Part shown: positions 2,287 to 19,353 of the stretch, piece by piece
How positions within the stretch are numbered: the stretch's first letter is position 1
Layout: every line of letters begins with the position of its first letter
Source: a virus
Virus record (IMG/VR): IMGVR_UViG_3300046660_000261
Location: 1-29,990 of that record
DNA: 29,990 nucleotides
Strand: one strand, 5' to 3'
Position numbers and translations under genes: made by a program
The notes under the pieces: model-generated
What the model was told of the DNA's origin: nothing
Database searches by the model: none
The model's input: only the letters and a program-made list of their open reading frames with translations

Positions 2287-3337
2287 AGCCTTCAGCTCTG
2301 ACTTCACCTCCCTGTACGAGTCAATGCACTTCCTGAGGGAGTACGACCGCGTCGTGCTCTTCCACGCGTACAAGACAGACAAGATCAAGGACTTCGTGGA
2401 GAAGACCGCGAGGATCACCGTTCACGAGTCGGTCTCTGTCCAGGAGTGGTTCGACAAGTGCACCACCAACCAGTTCAAGACCTGGAGAGACTTCTATGAA
2501 GCGTTCGACCCTGCGGTCTATTTCGGAGACTTTGACGACGTCTACCTGTTTGGCGCACCCCTCTCTGACGGAGGAGCACTCAAGCGTAAGAAGAACGGCC
2601 TCGAGAAGAACCTCGACACTAACAAATTCATCACCTTCGTCAGCGTCGCCAAGCACTACTTCGTGGCCTACGCTGCAGTTAAGGTCGCAAACCTATCTGG
2701 AGCCAGGTTCCTCGAGATGTGCTACGATCCTGGAGAAAATTCTGTGGCACAGCTGGGAGACGACATACGGCCCGTCGACACCCACGTTTATCACGGCTAC
2801 GGCATAGAGCGCCTGGGCATCGAGAAGCATCCGTTCTTCGTGGACGGCATGGTACTGCCCGAGAGTTCACCGTTCGATGAAGAAACGGTTGACTACGACG
2901 TCGTCTTCGGTTATTCTTACATGACCAAGGACCGAAAGGCCTCGCACGAGTACGCCCAGAGAGTGATCTCGGCCGTGTCTCCCGAGTTCCGGTCGAGGTT
3001 CCTCATCAAGGACAAGATCAACGACGTCGACACGTCCGTCCCACGCGGCGAGTACGTGAAGCTGCTTTCGAGGTCTCGCTTCACGTTCGTGGCGCCGGCG
3101 TACGAGCCTGGCATATTCTCACCCTTCCGTTACCAGGAAGCACTGAAGGTCGGCTGCCTCCCGCTCGTCTTCGAGACGTGCCCGTGGAGGGAGTTTGTCG
3201 ACAGCTTCGACATCGACGAGGGGACCTTCCGCTCGCTCGTGGTGAACCCGTCGGACGTCACTCCGACGATGCAGATGCGCGAAGAGACGCGCCTCGACCT
3301 GGTGCGTTACCTGTCGTCAAAGGTCCTCAACTTCTGA
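2258..3337 (+). CDS. glycosyltransferase-like protein, second in the sugar cassette
   Basis: A protein of about 359 residues. The C-terminal region YVKLLSRSRFTFVAPAYEP followed by SPFRYQEALKVGCLPLVFE is the typical donor-binding end of GT-B or exostosin-like glycosyltransferases (small residue, E, A, GC-P pattern). I prefer the TTG at 2258 (MRTAAIFTTRAF), which has an AAGAAG ribosome site 8 nt upstream, over the in-frame TTG at 2252; there is no good ATG before 2324. It overlaps the end of glf by 29 nt. No terminator follows; 68 nt separate it from the methyltransferase. It probably uses the UDP-furanose made by Glf, but specificity cannot be read from sequence. Confidence 0.65.
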   Translation: MRTAAIFTTRAFSSDFTSLYESMHFLREYDRVVLFHAYKTDKIKDFVEKTARITVHESVSVQEWFDKCTTNQFKTWRDFYEAFDPAVYFGDFDDVYLFGAPLSDGGALKRKKNGLEKNLDTNKFITFVSVAKHYFVAYAAVKVANLSGARFLEMCYDPGENSVAQLGDDIRPVDTHVYHGYGIERLGIEKHPFFVDGMVLPESSPFDEETVDYDVVFGYSYMTKDRKASHEYAQRVISAVSPEFRSRFLIKDKINDVDTSVPRGEYVKLLSRSRFTFVAPAYEPGIFSPFRYQEALKVGCLPLVFETCPWREFVDSFDIDEGTFRSLVVNPSDVTPTMQMREETRLDLVRYLSSKVLNF

Positions 3338-3366
3338 TAAATTTCCGTTCTGCGTCGTCTCCGACC

Positions 3367-3374
3367 TATAAATA
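3367..3374 (+). promoter_or_regulatory. T4-type late promoter (TATAAATA)
   Basis: A perfect TATAAATA lies in the 68-nt gap before the methyltransferase gene. RNA would start near 3380. Five-base inverted arms, GACCT (3363-3367) and AGGTC (3375-3379), flank it. A six-codon ORF (MQLEID, 3385-3405) lies between promoter and gene, and its TGA directly abuts the methyltransferase ATG; it may be chance or a coupling leader. Confidence 0.8.
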
Positions 3375-3405
3375 AGGTCATACGATGCAACTGGAAATTG
3401 ACTGA

Positions 3406-4593
3406 ATGAGTGACTTTACCTGGGGGAGCATAGTTCCCCTCATCGGCGGCGAGACCATCGCCATGGAGAGAACTTTCGGCACTCGACCTGAGTACATCCT
3501 CTCTTACTCGCCCTTCGTGGCGAACGACCTCCACCTACTGAACTACTACGACAACGAGGTGCCCTACCACCTGATCGACAAGGAAGAGGGCTTCACGCCG
3601 AAGCGCGTTGACGTCGTCAACGCCGTCTGCCCCTGCGCCGGCCTCTCGTCTCTCTCGCCGACTTCCTCGGCAGACTCCAAGACGAACGACTGGATGTTCG
3701 ACTCCGCGAAGTACGTCTTCGAGAACGTCAAGCCCAAGGTCCTCTGGGGTGAGAACGCCCCGCAGTTCGCGACCAACAAGGGCACGAAGATCCGTGAGAA
3801 GCTCCGTGACCTCGCCTTCGAGAACGACTACTCCATGAGCGTCATCAAGACGAAGTCGCTCGTGCACGGCCTGCCGCAGATCAGGGTGCGGTCGTTCTAC
3901 TTCTTCTGGCAGGGCATGGACGCGCCGCTGTTCGACTACTACAGCCGCCCACACGTGCGCTTCGAGGACCTCCTGCGCGGAGTCACCTCCAACACCCAGC
4001 GCGAGCCGATCGGTCAGGGCAAGCCCTCCGACAACAAGTACCTCAAGTTCATCCTCGAGAGTGTGCGCAAGCAGACCTTCCAGGAGTTCTACGACTCGCT
4101 CGAGAAGTCTGTGGGCGTCATCGACGTGATTGAACGTGAGTCTGACTGGACCACCTGTGCTGAGTGGATGGAGGCCAACGGCTACGACCGCGAGGCCAAG
4201 TCTTCTCGCCGGCGCCAGGCCAAGCTCGACGACCACAAGGGGTACATGAAGAAAGACCTCGTGATCGCCAAGGACTACATCGGCGCCTTCGTGGGCCACA
4301 TGCCGTCCTCGATCAAGCACCCCGACTACGACCGGTACATCGACTACCGCGAGGCGATGACCATCATGGGACTGCCGCAAGACTTCATCCTCGGCGACCC
4401 GAAGAAGTCGACCAACCACATCTGTCAGAACGTGCCGGTGCAGACCGCTACCGACATGGCCACCGAGGTCCGTGAAGCACTGCTCGGTAACAGGAAGTCC
4501 TCGGGCCACCGCTACGTAGTCCAGGACAACATCCACCAGAAGGTGGAAGAGACTCTCTACCCGACCAGGACTCTGGTTGACTTCGCGGTCTGA
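3406..4593 (+). CDS. DNA (cytosine-5-)methyltransferase
   Basis: A 395-residue enzyme expected to transfer methyl from S-adenosylmethionine to C5 of cytosine in DNA. Motif I is present in reduced form as PLIGG (11-15). The catalytic Pro-Cys motif IV is CPCAGLS (75-81), motif VI is WGENAP (114-119), motif VIII is QIRVR (158-162), and motifs IX/X appear near 304-348 (YREAMTIMGLPQDF, QNVPVQTATDMA). All key residues, including the nucleophilic Cys, are there, so it should be active. The target site is unknown. A perfect late promoter precedes it, which fits methylation of newly made phage DNA before packaging, for example against host restriction. It follows the sugar cassette, so a combined modification is possible but unproven. 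Confidence 0.9.
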   Translation: MSDFTWGSIVPLIGGETIAMERTFGTRPEYILSYSPFVANDLHLLNYYDNEVPYHLIDKEEGFTPKRVDVVNAVCPCAGLSSLSPTSSADSKTNDWMFDSAKYVFENVKPKVLWGENAPQFATNKGTKIREKLRDLAFENDYSMSVIKTKSLVHGLPQIRVRSFYFFWQGMDAPLFDYYSRPHVRFEDLLRGVTSNTQREPIGQGKPSDNKYLKFILESVRKQTFQEFYDSLEKSVGVIDVIERESDWTTCAEWMEANGYDREAKSSRRRQAKLDDHKGYMKKDLVIAKDYIGAFVGHMPSSIKHPDYDRYIDYREAMTIMGLPQDFILGDPKKSTNHICQNVPVQTATDMATEVREALLGNRKSSGHRYVVQDNIHQKVEETLYPTRTLVDFAV

Positions 4594-14357: not shown

Positions 14358-14540
14358 ATGAACTATACCGTAGAAGAAATGCTGGTCCTCATGGGCCAGC
14401 TCAGCGACTCCCTCACCTTCTTCAACTTCCGCCAGGACTGGGTCGACCCGTCCATGAGGGCTCAGAACGAGCTCGAGCGGCGGGAGTGCATCGGCCAGCT
14501 AGAACGCCTCGCTGCCTCCATTTCTCAAAAGAATGGTTGA
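14358..14540 (+). CDS. small acidic protein, unknown
   Basis: A 60-residue protein (MNYTVEEMLVLMGQLSDSL to SISQKNG), helical, no known family. Its last codons overlap the direct repeat and the -35 box of the next promoter, and its TGA is part of that TTGACA. GGGATG upstream gives only a weak ribosome site. Confidence 0.5.
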   Translation: MNYTVEEMLVLMGQLSDSLTFFNFRQDWVDPSMRAQNELERRECIGQLERLAASISQKNG

Positions 14541-14555
14541 CATTTCTCAAAAGAA
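14519..14555 (+). repeat. 15-bp direct repeat spanning an early promoter
   Basis: CATTTCTCAAAAGAA occurs at 14519-14533 and again at 14541-14555, a period of 22 bp (two helical turns). The second copy fills most of the spacer of the 14537 promoter. The spacing suggests paired protein-binding sites; a slipped duplication is the alternative. Confidence 0.7.
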
Positions 14556-14565
14556 GTGTTATAAT
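14537..14565 (+). promoter_or_regulatory. consensus early promoter
   Basis: TTGACA (14537-14542), 17 nt, TATAAT (14560-14565): a perfect match to the sigma70 consensus, with a late-type element right behind it. Confidence 0.93.
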
Positions 14566-15969: not shown

Positions 15970-15998
15970 TTGACATTTTCTTGAGATCGGTATAGAAT
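15970..15998 (+). promoter_or_regulatory. early promoter of the DNA polymerase N-terminal gene
   Basis: TTGACA (15970-15975), 17 nt, TAGAAT (15993-15998). The expected RNA start (7 nt after the -10) is 16005, the A of the polymerase ATG. Confidence 0.8.
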
Positions 15999-16004
15999 CA
16001 GTCA

Positions 16005-17495
16005 ATGCTAAAATTTTATACGAACGTCGCCCACTGGGGCGGACGAGTACGCGTCCGTGGATGGAACAACGGCCGCCGCTTTCAAGAGTCTATCCCCTAC
16101 AAGCCGTACCTCTTCACTCGCTCGAGGAACCTCGAGTCGACGACGAGCTACAGGACCCTCCGAGGCCAGCCAGTAGAGAAGGTCGACTTCGACTCTATCT
16201 ACGACGCCAAGGAGTTCGTCGAGAGGTACGACGAGGTCCACAACTTCGAGGTCTACGGGTCGACTAACTGGCCGTACGTGTACCTCTATGACGAGTACCG
16301 GGACGTGCCTTACGACCCGAAGCAGATCAGCGTGGTCAACGTCGACATCGAAGTCGGAGCCGATGAGTTCCCCGACCCCTGGAAGGCCGACTGGCCGATC
16401 ACCGCGATCACCATCGAGAAGAACAAGAAGGTCTACTCGCTGGGGCTCATGCCGTACGAGCCGAGCCTGCCGAACGTCACTTACATCCTGTGTAAGAACG
16501 AGAACGACCTCCTCGACAAGTTCATCCAGATCTGGCTCAACTTCGACCCCGACGTGGTGACCGGCTGGAACATCGACTACTTCGACATCCCGTACATCGT
16601 GAACCGCGTCAAGAAGCTGCTCGGCGACGACTCCGTCCTGCTGCTCTCGCCGTGGAAGAAGATCAAAGAGAGCACGGTGTTCTACCACGGGTCCAACAAG
16701 ACCCTGTACGAGCTCGTGGGCATCACGTCCCTCGACTACCTCCCGCTCTACAAGAAGTTCTCGTTCTCCAACGAGGAGTCCTACCGACTCGACAACATCG
16801 CGTTCGTGGTGATCGGCGAGAAGAAGCTGGACTACTCCGAGTACGAGTCGCTCAACGACCTCTACAAGAACGACTTCAAGAAGTACATGGACTACAACAT
16901 CCACGACGTCATGCTGGTGTCGCGGATCAACGACAAGCTCGGGTTCATCGAGCAGGTATTCGCCATCGCGTACGACTCCCTGGTCAACTTCGCTGACACG
17001 TTCACGTCGGTGAAGATCTGGGAGATCATCATGCACAACTACCTGCTCGGACAGGGCATCGTGTCGCCGCCCAAGAAGCACTCCATGAAGGAGAAGCAGA
17101 TCGCGGGCGGGTACGTCAAGGAGCCCATCACGGGCCGACATGAGTGGGTGGCGAGCTTCGACTTGAACTCCCTGTACCCGCACCTGATCATGCAGTACAA
17201 CATATCGCCCGAGACGTTCGTCGACGTGCTGGACGAGCTGCCGTCGGACGAAACTTCACCGGACCGGATCATCAACGGCTTCATGAACGACGAGAGGCAG
17301 GCCCAGCTGAGGGAGGCCAACCTCGCACTGACTGCCGGCGGCGCCCTCTACTCCCGTGAGAAGCAGGGCTTCGTGCCGGTCCTCATGGAGCAGATGTACA
17401 ACGACCGATCGAAGTTCAAGTCCATGATGATCGAAGAGAAACAGAACCTAGAGGCCATAGAGGCCGAGATGAAGAAGAGAGGCATACTCACGTGA
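16005..17495 (+). CDS. 43A: DNA polymerase gp43, N-terminal fragment (exonuclease and motif A)
   Basis: 496 residues of a T4-type family B polymerase. MLKFYTNVAHWG and VPYKPYLF-like IPYKPYLFTRS open the N-terminal domain. The 3'-5' exonuclease has Exo I VDIE (D114, E116), Exo II GWNIDYFDIPY (187-197) and Exo III Y297-D301. Palm motif A is DLNSLYPHL (386-394). The frame stops after MKKRGILT, in the fingers region, before motif B, so this half alone cannot polymerise but could be an exonuclease. It must pair with the fragment from 18253 (together about 862 residues; T4: 898). There is no ribosome site before the ATG, and the promoter places the RNA start on the ATG itself, so translation may be leaderless. 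Confidence 0.95.
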   Translation: MLKFYTNVAHWGGRVRVRGWNNGRRFQESIPYKPYLFTRSRNLESTTSYRTLRGQPVEKVDFDSIYDAKEFVERYDEVHNFEVYGSTNWPYVYLYDEYRDVPYDPKQISVVNVDIEVGADEFPDPWKADWPITAITIEKNKKVYSLGLMPYEPSLPNVTYILCKNENDLLDKFIQIWLNFDPDVVTGWNIDYFDIPYIVNRVKKLLGDDSVLLLSPWKKIKESTVFYHGSNKTLYELVGITSLDYLPLYKKFSFSNEESYRLDNIAFVVIGEKKLDYSEYESLNDLYKNDFKKYMDYNIHDVMLVSRINDKLGFIEQVFAIAYDSLVNFADTFTSVKIWEIIMHNYLLGQGIVSPPKKHSMKEKQIAGGYVKEPITGRHEWVASFDLNSLYPHLIMQYNISPETFVDVLDELPSDETSPDRIINGFMNDERQAQLREANLALTAGGALYSREKQGFVPVLMEQMYNDRSKFKSMMIEEKQNLEAIEAEMKKRGILT

Positions 17496-18031
17496 GAGAC
17501 CTTTTCGTCGTAAGCGACACGCACTTCAACCACAAGAACATCCTCAACTTCGAGGACGGACACCACATCAAGTTCAGAGGCGAGCTCTTCGAGTCCGTCG
17601 AGCACATGAACGAGACGATGATCGAGAACTGGAACCGAGTCGTAGGAGTGAGCGACCATGTTTATCACCTTGGGGACGTTTACTTTGGTCATCGCGATGA
17701 TGCTGATAAAATTCTCGCTCGGCTGAACGGGAAGAAGCGTCTCATCCTGGGCAACCACGACGACGGCAAGTGCCCCGTCCTGCAGCGTCACTTCCAGAAG
17801 ATCATGATGTGGCGCTTCGTGCCGGAGCTCGACCTGCTGCTCAGCCACACGCCGCAGCACGAGTCGTCCCTCTACAAGGTGACGTACAACGTCCACGGCC
17901 ACATCCACCAGAACGACGCACCGACGACGCGTCACGTCAACGTGTCGGTCGAGAAGACGAGTTACGCGCCGGTACTGCTCGAGGACGTGATCAATGAGCA
18001 CAAGAAGCTGATCGAGGAGACGTTCGGATGA
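17492..18031 (+). CDS. metallophosphoesterase inserted within the polymerase gene
   Basis: A 179-residue calcineurin-like phosphoesterase. All metal-site motifs are visible: DTHFNH (9-14), GDVYFG, GNHD, SHTP and HGHIHQ. The substrate is unknown; relatives cut nucleotides, cyclic phosphates or proteins' phosphates. The GTG start overlaps the stop of the polymerase N-terminal fragment (GTGA), so it is translated with it. It and the next ORF separate the two polymerase halves. It lacks GIY-YIG, HNH or LAGLIDADG motifs, so it is not an obvious homing endonuclease. Codons at about 17658-17720 are unusually AT-rich compared with the rest of the gene. Confidence 0.9.
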   Translation: MRDLFVVSDTHFNHKNILNFEDGHHIKFRGELFESVEHMNETMIENWNRVVGVSDHVYHLGDVYFGHRDDADKILARLNGKKRLILGNHDDGKCPVLQRHFQKIMMWRFVPELDLLLSHTPQHESSLYKVTYNVHGHIHQNDAPTTRHVNVSVEKTSYAPVLLEDVINEHKKLIEETFG

Positions 18032-18195
18032 TCTACACGCTAGTGTTCGTGGCGTTCAACTGGGCGGCCGGCGGTTACGTGAACGTGTCCACCACTTTCT
18101 CTTCTCAAGAGAAGTGTGAGCAGGCACTCGCAGAGCTCAAGACGACGTCTGAGTCCACTCGCAGTCAGACCATCCAGATCGCGAAGTGCTACTAA
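18028..18195 (+). CDS. small putative membrane/exported peptide, unknown
   Basis: A 55-residue protein, ATGA-coupled to the phosphoesterase. MIYTLVFVAFNWAAGGYV is a hydrophobic start, followed by STTFSSQEKCEQALAELKT and a C-terminal Cys (AKCY). The two cysteines and helix suggest a small periplasmic protein. An inverted repeat, CTTCTC AA GAGAAG (18101-18114), lies inside it. It ends immediately before the promoter of the polymerase C-terminal fragment. Confidence 0.55.
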   Translation: MIYTLVFVAFNWAAGGYVNVSTTFSSQEKCEQALAELKTTSESTRSQTIQIAKCY

Positions 18196-18199
18196 ACTG

Positions 18200-18228
18200 T
18201 TTACATTCTCGACGGAATAGTTTATACT
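18200..18228 (+). promoter_or_regulatory. early promoter of the DNA polymerase C-terminal gene
   Basis: TTTACA (18200-18205), 17 nt, TATACT (18223-18228). RNA would start near 18235, a few bases before AAGGA (18240-18244). The TTTACATTCTCGA-type -35 region and AAGGA leader resemble the cassettes at 10367, 26842 and 27285. Confidence 0.85.
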
Positions 18229-18252
18229 AGATCTTTCTCAAGGACATTCCCC

Positions 18253-19353
18253 ATCGACTACTCAACTCTGACCGACGCAGAGCTCAAAACTCTGCGCCGT
18301 GAGACTGAAGTCAAGGTCTCTAAGTATCACAACATCCAGCTCGCCAAGAAGATCCTGCTGAACTCCTGCTACGGCGCTATGAGTAACCAGTACTTCCTGT
18401 ACTACTCAGACGTCCTGGCCGAGAGCATCACGTTGTCCGGCCAGCTCTCGATCAAGTGGATCGCGAAGAAGTTCAACGAGTACCTCAACCGGGTGCTCAA
18501 GACGGACGGAGTTGACTACGTCCTCGCGGTCGACACAGACTCCAACTACATCAAGCTCGACCTGCTCGTCAAGAAAGTCTTCGGCGAGACCTCCGACAAG
18601 GAGAAGGTCGTCAACTTCGTGGACAAGTTCTGTCGTGAAGTCCTCGAGCCCTACGTCGAAGAGTCGTACCAAGAGCTCGCCGACATGATGAACGCGTTCT
18701 CCCAGAAGATGAAGATGAAGCGCGAGAACATCGCGGACGTCGCCATCTGGACGGGCAAGAAGAAGTACGTCATGAACGTGTGGGACTCCGAGAACGTGCG
18801 GTACAAGGAGCCCAAGGTCAAGATGACTGGCATCGAGGCCGTGCGGTCCAACACCCCGTACGTCTGCCGCGAGTACATCAAGAAGTCGATCAGCATCATC
18901 ATGAACGGCACCGAGGAGCAGCTCCACGAGTACGTCGCGAAGTGCCGGGACGAGTTCTCGAAGATGCGCTTCGAGGAGGTCGGCAAGCCGTCAGGCGTCA
19001 ACGGGATGCGTGACTACGCCGACAAGCACACCGTCTACCGCAAGGGCACCCCGATGCACGTCCGGGCCGCGCTGGTCTACAACGCGACCATCAAGGAGCA
19101 CGGCCTCGACAAGAAGTTCCCGCTGATCAACGACGGCGACAAGATCAAGTTCACGTACATGAAGGTCCCGAACCCGATCCGTGAGAACGTCTTCGCGGTC
19201 TCGTCGTCCCTGCCGCCGAGCCTCAACCTCGAGCAGTACATCGACTACGAGACGCAGTTCGACAAGACGTTCATAAGCCCACTCAACATCATCCTGAAAG
19301 AGATCGATTGGTCGTACGAGAAGCGGCTGTCGTTAGAGGAGTTTTTCTCATGA
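18253..19353 (+). CDS. 43B: DNA polymerase gp43, C-terminal fragment (motifs B and C)
   Basis: About 366 residues completing the polymerase. Motif B is AKKILLNSCYG (31-41 counted from 18253), motif C is VDTDSNY (D94, D96), then WTGKKKYVMNVWD and a C-terminal SLEEFF that resembles the clamp-binding tail of T4 gp43. The only early ATG (18379) falls after motif B and would remove the catalytic lysine, so it cannot be the start of a working enzyme. Upstream the frame is open to the TAA at 18193 with no ATG, GTG or TTG. AUC at 18253 is 8 nt after AAGGA, where sister leaders have ATG, so I take it as the likely start; CTG at 18268 is an alternative. Identity is sure, start is not. Confidence 0.88.
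   Translation: MDYSTLTDAELKTLRRETEVKVSKYHNIQLAKKILLNSCYGAMSNQYFLYYSDVLAESITLSGQLSIKWIAKKFNEYLNRVLKTDGVDYVLAVDTDSNYIKLDLLVKKVFGETSDKEKVVNFVDKFCREVLEPYVEESYQELADMMNAFSQKMKMKRENIADVAIWTGKKKYVMNVWDSENVRYKEPKVKMTGIEAVRSNTPYVCREYIKKSISIIMNGTEEQLHEYVAKCRDEFSKMRFEEVGKPSGVNGMRDYADKHTVYRKGTPMHVRAALVYNATIKEHGLDKKFPLINDGDKIKFTYMKVPNPIRENVFAVSSSLPPSLNLEQYIDYETQFDKTFISPLNIILKEIDWSYEKRLSLEEFFS

Follow-up and report, generated by a model that had tools for sequence, protein, structure and literature searches.

A T4-type DNA polymerase gene split at the fingertip around a phosphoesterase gene, with a probable AUC start codon for its second half

Split replicative polymerases have so far mostly been regarded as a curiosity of Aeromonas phages. 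In phages 44RR2.8t, 25, Aes508, and CC2, gene 43 is cut at the fingertip of the encoded polymerase (gp43), and the gap between the two parts (43A and 43B) holds an untranslated spacer in 44RR, a homing endonuclease gene in 25 (seg43) and Aes508, and nothing in CC2 (44RR and 25: PMC2988022). The 43A protein of 44RR ends in ...ILASRGVKLDH and its 43B protein begins with MELELFRDF..., with ATG as the 43B start codon in 44RR, Aes508, and CC2. The halves of phage 25 gp43 co-purify with polymerase activity (PMC2988022). A different essential gene, nrdA of Aeh1, is split by the homing gene mobE, and its chains also assemble into an active enzyme (PMC2988022); an earlier note on the DNA studied here had cited mobE as the gp43 precedent, a role that belongs to seg43 instead. 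Among other phages, Acinetobacter phage Stupor (Lazarusvirus, Straboviridae) carries 43A and 43B with six unrelated ORFs and no annotated endonuclease between them and an ATG start for 43B, and cyanophage ACG-2014f (Atlauavirus) has the same cut with small non-endonuclease ORFs in the gap.

The locus described here lies in a 29,990-nt stretch of a virus record from IMG/VR, referred to as the window (Table 1). Its gp43 is cut at the same fingertip site as in the Aeromonas phages, whereas its gap is occupied by a phosphoesterase gene and a small ORF, and its 43B apparently starts with AUC. It resembles Stupor in having separate 43A and 43B genes but differs in cargo and start codon; it resembles ACG-2014f in the cut, in the non-endonuclease content of the gap, and, by our reading of the sequences, in an AUU/AUC start for 43B, but carries other cargo and does not share its origin. 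While split gp43 itself was already known, the phosphoesterase cargo, the probable AUC start, and the independent origin are new. We consider it probable that the locus encodes a functional two-subunit T4-type polymerase derived from an old homing-type split, whose endonuclease gene has since been lost or replaced by cargo and whose 43B is translated from AUC.

Table 1. Features of the split gp43 locus, in window coordinates (L004 is an independent related contig; see text)
Feature	Position	Strand	Basis
Sigma-70-like promoter TTGACA-17-TAGAAT, directly 5' of 43A	15970..15998	+	Consensus scan, 11/12 matches
Gene 43A (exonuclease, N-terminal domain, palm motif A, first fingers helix; 496 aa)	16005..17495	+	Pfam PF03104 and PF00136; RB69 gp43 alignment; AlphaFold
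Metallophosphoesterase (phrog_547), 179 aa, GTG start overlapping 43A stop	17492..18031	+	Active-site motifs all present
55-aa ORF, overlapping phosphoesterase stop; L004 copy 36% identical	18028..18195	+	ORF list; L004 comparison
Sigma-70-like promoter TTTACA-17-TATACT for 43B	18200..18228	+	Consensus match; L004 has both hexamers in the matching position, 16 nt apart
Shine-Dalgarno-like AAGGA, 8 nt before ATC 18253	18240..18244	+	Sequence; duplex energy -5.1 kcal/mol
Proposed AUC start codon of 43B	18253..18255	+	Sequence comparison with L004
Gene 43B (second fingers helix with motif B, palm motif C, thumb, C-terminal tail; 366 aa)	18253..19353	+	PF00136; T4 gp43 alignment; AlphaFold

All of the motifs of the T4-type gp43 branch of family B (Exo I–III and motifs A, B, and C) were found, spread over both chains. 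43A contains the exonuclease motifs DIE, GWNIDYFDIPY, and YNIHD and motif A (DLNSLYPHLI) and stops after MKKRGILT, and 43B contains motif B (KKILLNSCYG), motif C (DTDS), and an FF tail at its C-terminus. PF00136 (PolB) was matched by both 43A (E = 5e-14) and 43B (E = 2.5e-11). These matches and the complementary motifs bear out the earlier note, which had read the two frames in this way and described a polymerase gene split between motifs A and B and not decayed. Alignment to the gp43 proteins of relatives also showed the halves to be complementary, with the break at the same alignment site as in 44RR, CC2, Stupor, and ACG-2014f: 43A covers RB69 gp43 as far as residue 501 and 43B covers T4 gp43 from residue 528, which places the cut at the tip of the fingers, a domain formed by residues 469–571 in RB69 gp43. 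When each chain was modelled alone with AlphaFold, 43A showed a C-terminal helix of 36 residues (456–491) and 43B a helix of 35 residues close to its N-terminus (8–42), which in these models represent the two antiparallel fingers helices; the motif A segment of 43A (361–393) had pLDDT values below 50 in the model without 43B. The best fold match for either model was RB69 gp43.

Comparison of the window with a 135,816-bp IMG/VR contig revealed a single mismatch in 29,926 bp (99.997% identity), and an independent 126-kb contig, L004, which is 79% identical, keeps the gene order (43A, an extra 80-aa ORF, phosphoesterase, small ORF, 43B). The split is real and not a product of chance, and misassembly is probably not its cause, given the contig match and the order in L004. 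A near phage record for the window was not found, and a host search of the genome contigs gave only a distant match to a WOR-3 MAG (47%). An interrupted gene could also mark the loss of a polymerase, in a phage that uses another one or in a dead lineage, but this is scarcely credible here: every catalytic motif is intact, the order is kept at 79% identity, and the mismatches between the 43B genes of the window and L004 are concentrated at third codon positions (115 of 217), so that 43B appears to be under coding constraint. Furthermore, no second intact polymerase, whether PolB or any PolA, was present in the 135.8-kb contig or in L004 (126.3 kb), both of which may be incomplete, a point that leaves some room for such a loss.

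If the gap were a self-splicing intron with its own ORFs, the spliced RNA would encode an unbroken polymerase, and the lack of an ATG start in 43B would fit a second exon; gp43 introns are known from Aeromonas and JSE phages (PMC2993671). However, no group I or II intron was detected in the window or L004 with Rfam at E values up to 5, while the same library found the gp43 intron of Aes508 with 73 bits. Stop and start codons overlap (ACGTGA) in the manner of an operon, a promoter and a Shine-Dalgarno sequence are conserved ahead of 43B, and the bare splits of cyanophage relatives (TAATG) leave no sequence that could be spliced out, all of which makes an intron very improbable. An intein-split gene was rejected, as neither 43A nor 43B matched an intein (Hint) family; 43A ends only 5 residues past its last helix.

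The gap contents agreed with the earlier description of a complete metallophosphoesterase with no endonuclease motif and a 55-residue ORF. The phosphoesterase has a full set of active-site motifs (D9xH11, GD62, GNHD88–90, H119, GHIH137–139), the 55-aa ORF had no family match, and a family search of the gap for GIY-YIG, HNH, and Vsr/DUF559 endonuclease genes found none. A role of the phosphoesterase as a mobile endonuclease was rejected: it is an ordinary phage phosphoesterase (phrog_547) with relatives near unsplit gp43 genes, either immediately upstream (L110, L112) or about 3.5 kb downstream (L094, L099). Because these relatives adjoin or sit near unsplit gp43, the gene looks like a resident of the replication region that fills the slot rather than a mobile element.

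The rarity of split gp43 implied by the earlier note was contradicted by a wider comparison. A split at this fingertip site also occurs in Aeromonas phages 44RR, CC2, and Aes508, Acinetobacter phages Stupor and vB_AbaM_Porter, cyanophage ACG-2014f, and approximately 15 IMG/VR contigs, and hence in at least four lineages of public phages and in many known from metagenomes. In some cases the gap is empty (overlapping TAATG); in others it contains small ORFs, a GIY-YIG gene, a DUF559/Vsr-like gene, or, in the window, the phosphoesterase; among the relatives compared, endonuclease-type genes at the split site were confined to L130/131 (DUF559/Vsr-like), L148 and L157 (GIY-YIG), and Aes508. Phylogenetic analysis of PolB showed at least seven changes of the split state on supported branches and nine in the mixture tree, a count of changes that does not separate gains from losses. 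The AU test rejected joining the window pair with the Atlauavirus splits (p = 3.5e-8), and thus a shared origin of the window split with those of cyanophages. It likewise rejected the grouping of every non-Straboviridae split into a single clade (p = 1.3e-5). Columns present only in split proteins were kept in the trees, and since these should favour joining, the rejections are conservative. Among the papers covered by the literature search, none dealt with gp43 splits in cyanophages or with AUU/AUC starts of 43B.

Comparison among cyanophage-type relatives revealed how split alleles move. L148 and L157 share 0.99–1.00 identity over positions ~3187–4186, a tract of about 1 kb comprising the end of 43A, the GIY-YIG gene, and the start of 43B, against 0.64–0.88 outside it. 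The junctions of L144, without the endonuclease gene, and L148, with it, are ~100% identical, and identity between split L144 and unsplit L151 falls from ~0.93 to 0.70–0.84 within some 250 bp of the cut. This pattern is the footprint expected of homing with co-conversion. In contrast, identity between the window and L004 is even (~0.8), with no cassette-like footprint, and the window lineage yielded neither an endonuclease gene nor a remnant of one, so that a homing origin of the window split rests on analogy.

Split alleles also carry additional sequence at the tip. Between the GF(L/V)P motif and motif B, the window split has 82 residues and T4 99 (alignment count), compared with 58–72 in unsplit relatives outside Straboviridae, where 58 is the length in 88 of about 111–112 proteins. 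The statement in the earlier note that no residues are missing therefore holds against T4 but not against the nearest unsplit relatives, whose tips are ~24 residues shorter (82 vs 58). Similarly, its view of a gene interrupted and not decayed was right about decay, but plain interruption is an incomplete description, because the extra tip sequence is absent from close unsplit relatives and because split alleles of the cyanophage type travel as cassettes with homing endonucleases. The split alleles have a common 43A tail (LxxIExEMKxRG) and a common 43B head (DYSxLSDxxLxxLR), which may be docking ends. The resemblance of the split tips to one another and to the long T4 tip would also fit an ancestral two-gene state in which repeated deletions fused the halves and shortened the fingertip of the unsplit relatives, and the tree cannot tell gains from losses. 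We judge this order of events quite unlikely, since the unsplit tips across the tree are so largely of one short length and many share YEKTPTKELEKEIAR, which independent repeated deletions would not produce, and since a split cassette that was recently transferred horizontally is seen in L148 and L157.

In the explanation that we favour, a functional polymerase of two subunits that descends from an old homing-type split, 43A would contribute the exonuclease, motif A, and one long antiparallel fingers helix. The other long helix, which bears motif B, would come from 43B together with motif C and the thumb, and non-covalent pairing of the chains would restore the palm and the coiled coil of the fingers. 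Assembly of 43A with 43B, which the earlier note had also called for, and polymerase activity of the complex would be expected by analogy with phage 25. The cut lies at a solvent-exposed fingertip and is of a kind that homing endonuclease genes spread; a split allele bringing tip extensions of its own may have replaced an intact tip, and an endonuclease gene, if the window lineage once had one as some of its relatives do, would later have been lost or swapped for the resident phosphoesterase gene and small ORFs. 43B would be expressed separately, from its own promoter, ribosome-binding site, and AUC start. Distant phages repeat one cut, homing with co-conversion offers a traceable route, and the extra tip sequence may dock the halves. 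Such loci provide naturally occurring blueprints for a polymerase in two parts and a direct way to test how a cut essential enzyme survives.

The separate promoter that the earlier note had assigned to the second half was recovered as a consensus match with its hexamers kept in L004. The first ATG of the 43B frame (18379) lies 3' of motif B, so the true start must be an upstream non-ATG codon; ATG 18379 was rejected, as a protein starting there would lack motif B and no Shine-Dalgarno sequence precedes it (-1.7 kcal/mol). The L004 frame opens 7 codons 5' of the corresponding ATC and has no ATG, GTG, or TTG ahead of motif B. Near-cognate codons in the interval from the preceding in-frame stop to motif B are limited to this ATC and one CTG (6040), 13 codons later. 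The ATC is conserved between the window and L004, follows AAGGA (AGGA in L004) at a spacing of 8–9 nt, and lies ~25 nt 3' of the conserved promoter (TTTACA-16/17-TATACT). The Shine-Dalgarno sequence of the window ATC is ordinary, with ~20% of the window ATC/ATT codons scoring as well. From these comparisons, we regard initiation of 43B at AUC 18253 as likely. Initiation elsewhere, at CTG 18268 or 18292 or an upstream ATT/ATA, or entry into 43B through bypass or readthrough of the small ORF, is unlikely: CUG starts exist, and the small ORF of the window is in frame with 43B, but a CTG start would cut off much of the conserved head IDYSTLTDAELK, which directly follows the start in other split 43B proteins (these begin 1–3 residues before the common D-Y/F-S head, as in MELDYS, MNLDYT, and MKLDFS). 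Readthrough was rejected, since in L004 the frames of the small ORF and 43B differ and the 43B frame has a stop 7 codons 5' of the ATC.

The use of such codons extends to the Atlauavirus-type group, in which eight loci have ATG as the homologous start codon (xGYLIGG), L136 has GTG, L083 and L217 have ATT, and L129, L130/131, L218, and L219 have ATC; the 43B start of L131 has a near-perfect Shine-Dalgarno sequence (-12.9 kcal/mol). AUU and AUC starts are held down by IF3, and a noncanonical start can set the ratio of partner proteins (PMC5472188). Cellular infC (ATT; ATC in Streptomyces) and sigR (GTC) likewise have start codons disfavoured by IF3, that of sigR setting the ratio of two partner proteins (PMC5472188), and both have experimental proof, whereas the window AUC is deduced from sequence comparison. 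By the same principle, the AUC start may hold 43B output low relative to 43A. More tentatively, and with rather more doubt than belief, the splits could be portable alleles in which homing cassettes, cutting at a tolerant loop, add docking helices to both new ends, the site becomes a cargo slot after loss of the endonuclease, and AUU/AUC codons, recruited independently in cyanophages and the window lineage, throttle 43B; phage polymerase splits would then not be accidents, and these starts would balance the two chains. Apparent AUU/AUC starts are missed by annotation pipelines, and the annotated start of ACG-2014f 43B differs in each of four isolates.

The T4-type family B DNA polymerase gp43 is cut about 20 aa past motif A, at a second recurrent split site, in the relative loci L046, L066, L068, L156, L171, L173, L190, L192, and L197, with an HNH gene inside the gap in L046, L066, and L156 and a GIY-YIG gene in L192 and L197. 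Most of these split loci carry an extension of about 40 residues, with ELNNRIVELEKML as the tail and MWKDVRxMSxEEIxEEL as the head, that most unsplit relatives lack. Two further loci, L064 and L078, have gp43 interrupted by approximately 1 kb at the exonuclease II motif (residue ~190), and an Rfam intron search of both interruptions gave zero matches at the gathering score.

Among the cyanophage ACG-2014f isolates (L083, L217, L218, and L219), the annotated start of 43B, the second gp43 half, differed in all four and lay at or past motif B in two. This discordance likely reflects an overlooked AUU or AUC start, judging from the sequences.

In the window, the predicted promoter of 43A, the first gp43 half, places the expected transcription start on or beside the 43A ATG, which suggests a leaderless 43A mRNA. 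Within the intervening phosphoesterase gene, an AT-rich-codon block coinciding with the catalytic-motif region had a GC3 of 0.37, versus 0.82 for the gene, and ~90% identity to the independent contig L004.

Coordinates of promoters, the phosphoesterase block, and gp43 interruptions
Feature	Sequence	Positions	Location	Basis
Perfect sigma-70 consensus promoter (predicted), TTGACA-17-TATAAT with TG extension	window	14537-14565	5' of 56-aa ORF	consensus match
43A promoter (predicted) through 43A ATG	window	15970-16007		
Low-GC3 block	window	17667-17723	phosphoesterase	
gp43 interruption	L064	4110-5110		
gp43 interruption	L078	202-1226		

A gp43 relative (47%) was also found within the chromosome of a candidate division WOR-3 MAG (L220), possibly phage DNA binned into that MAG.
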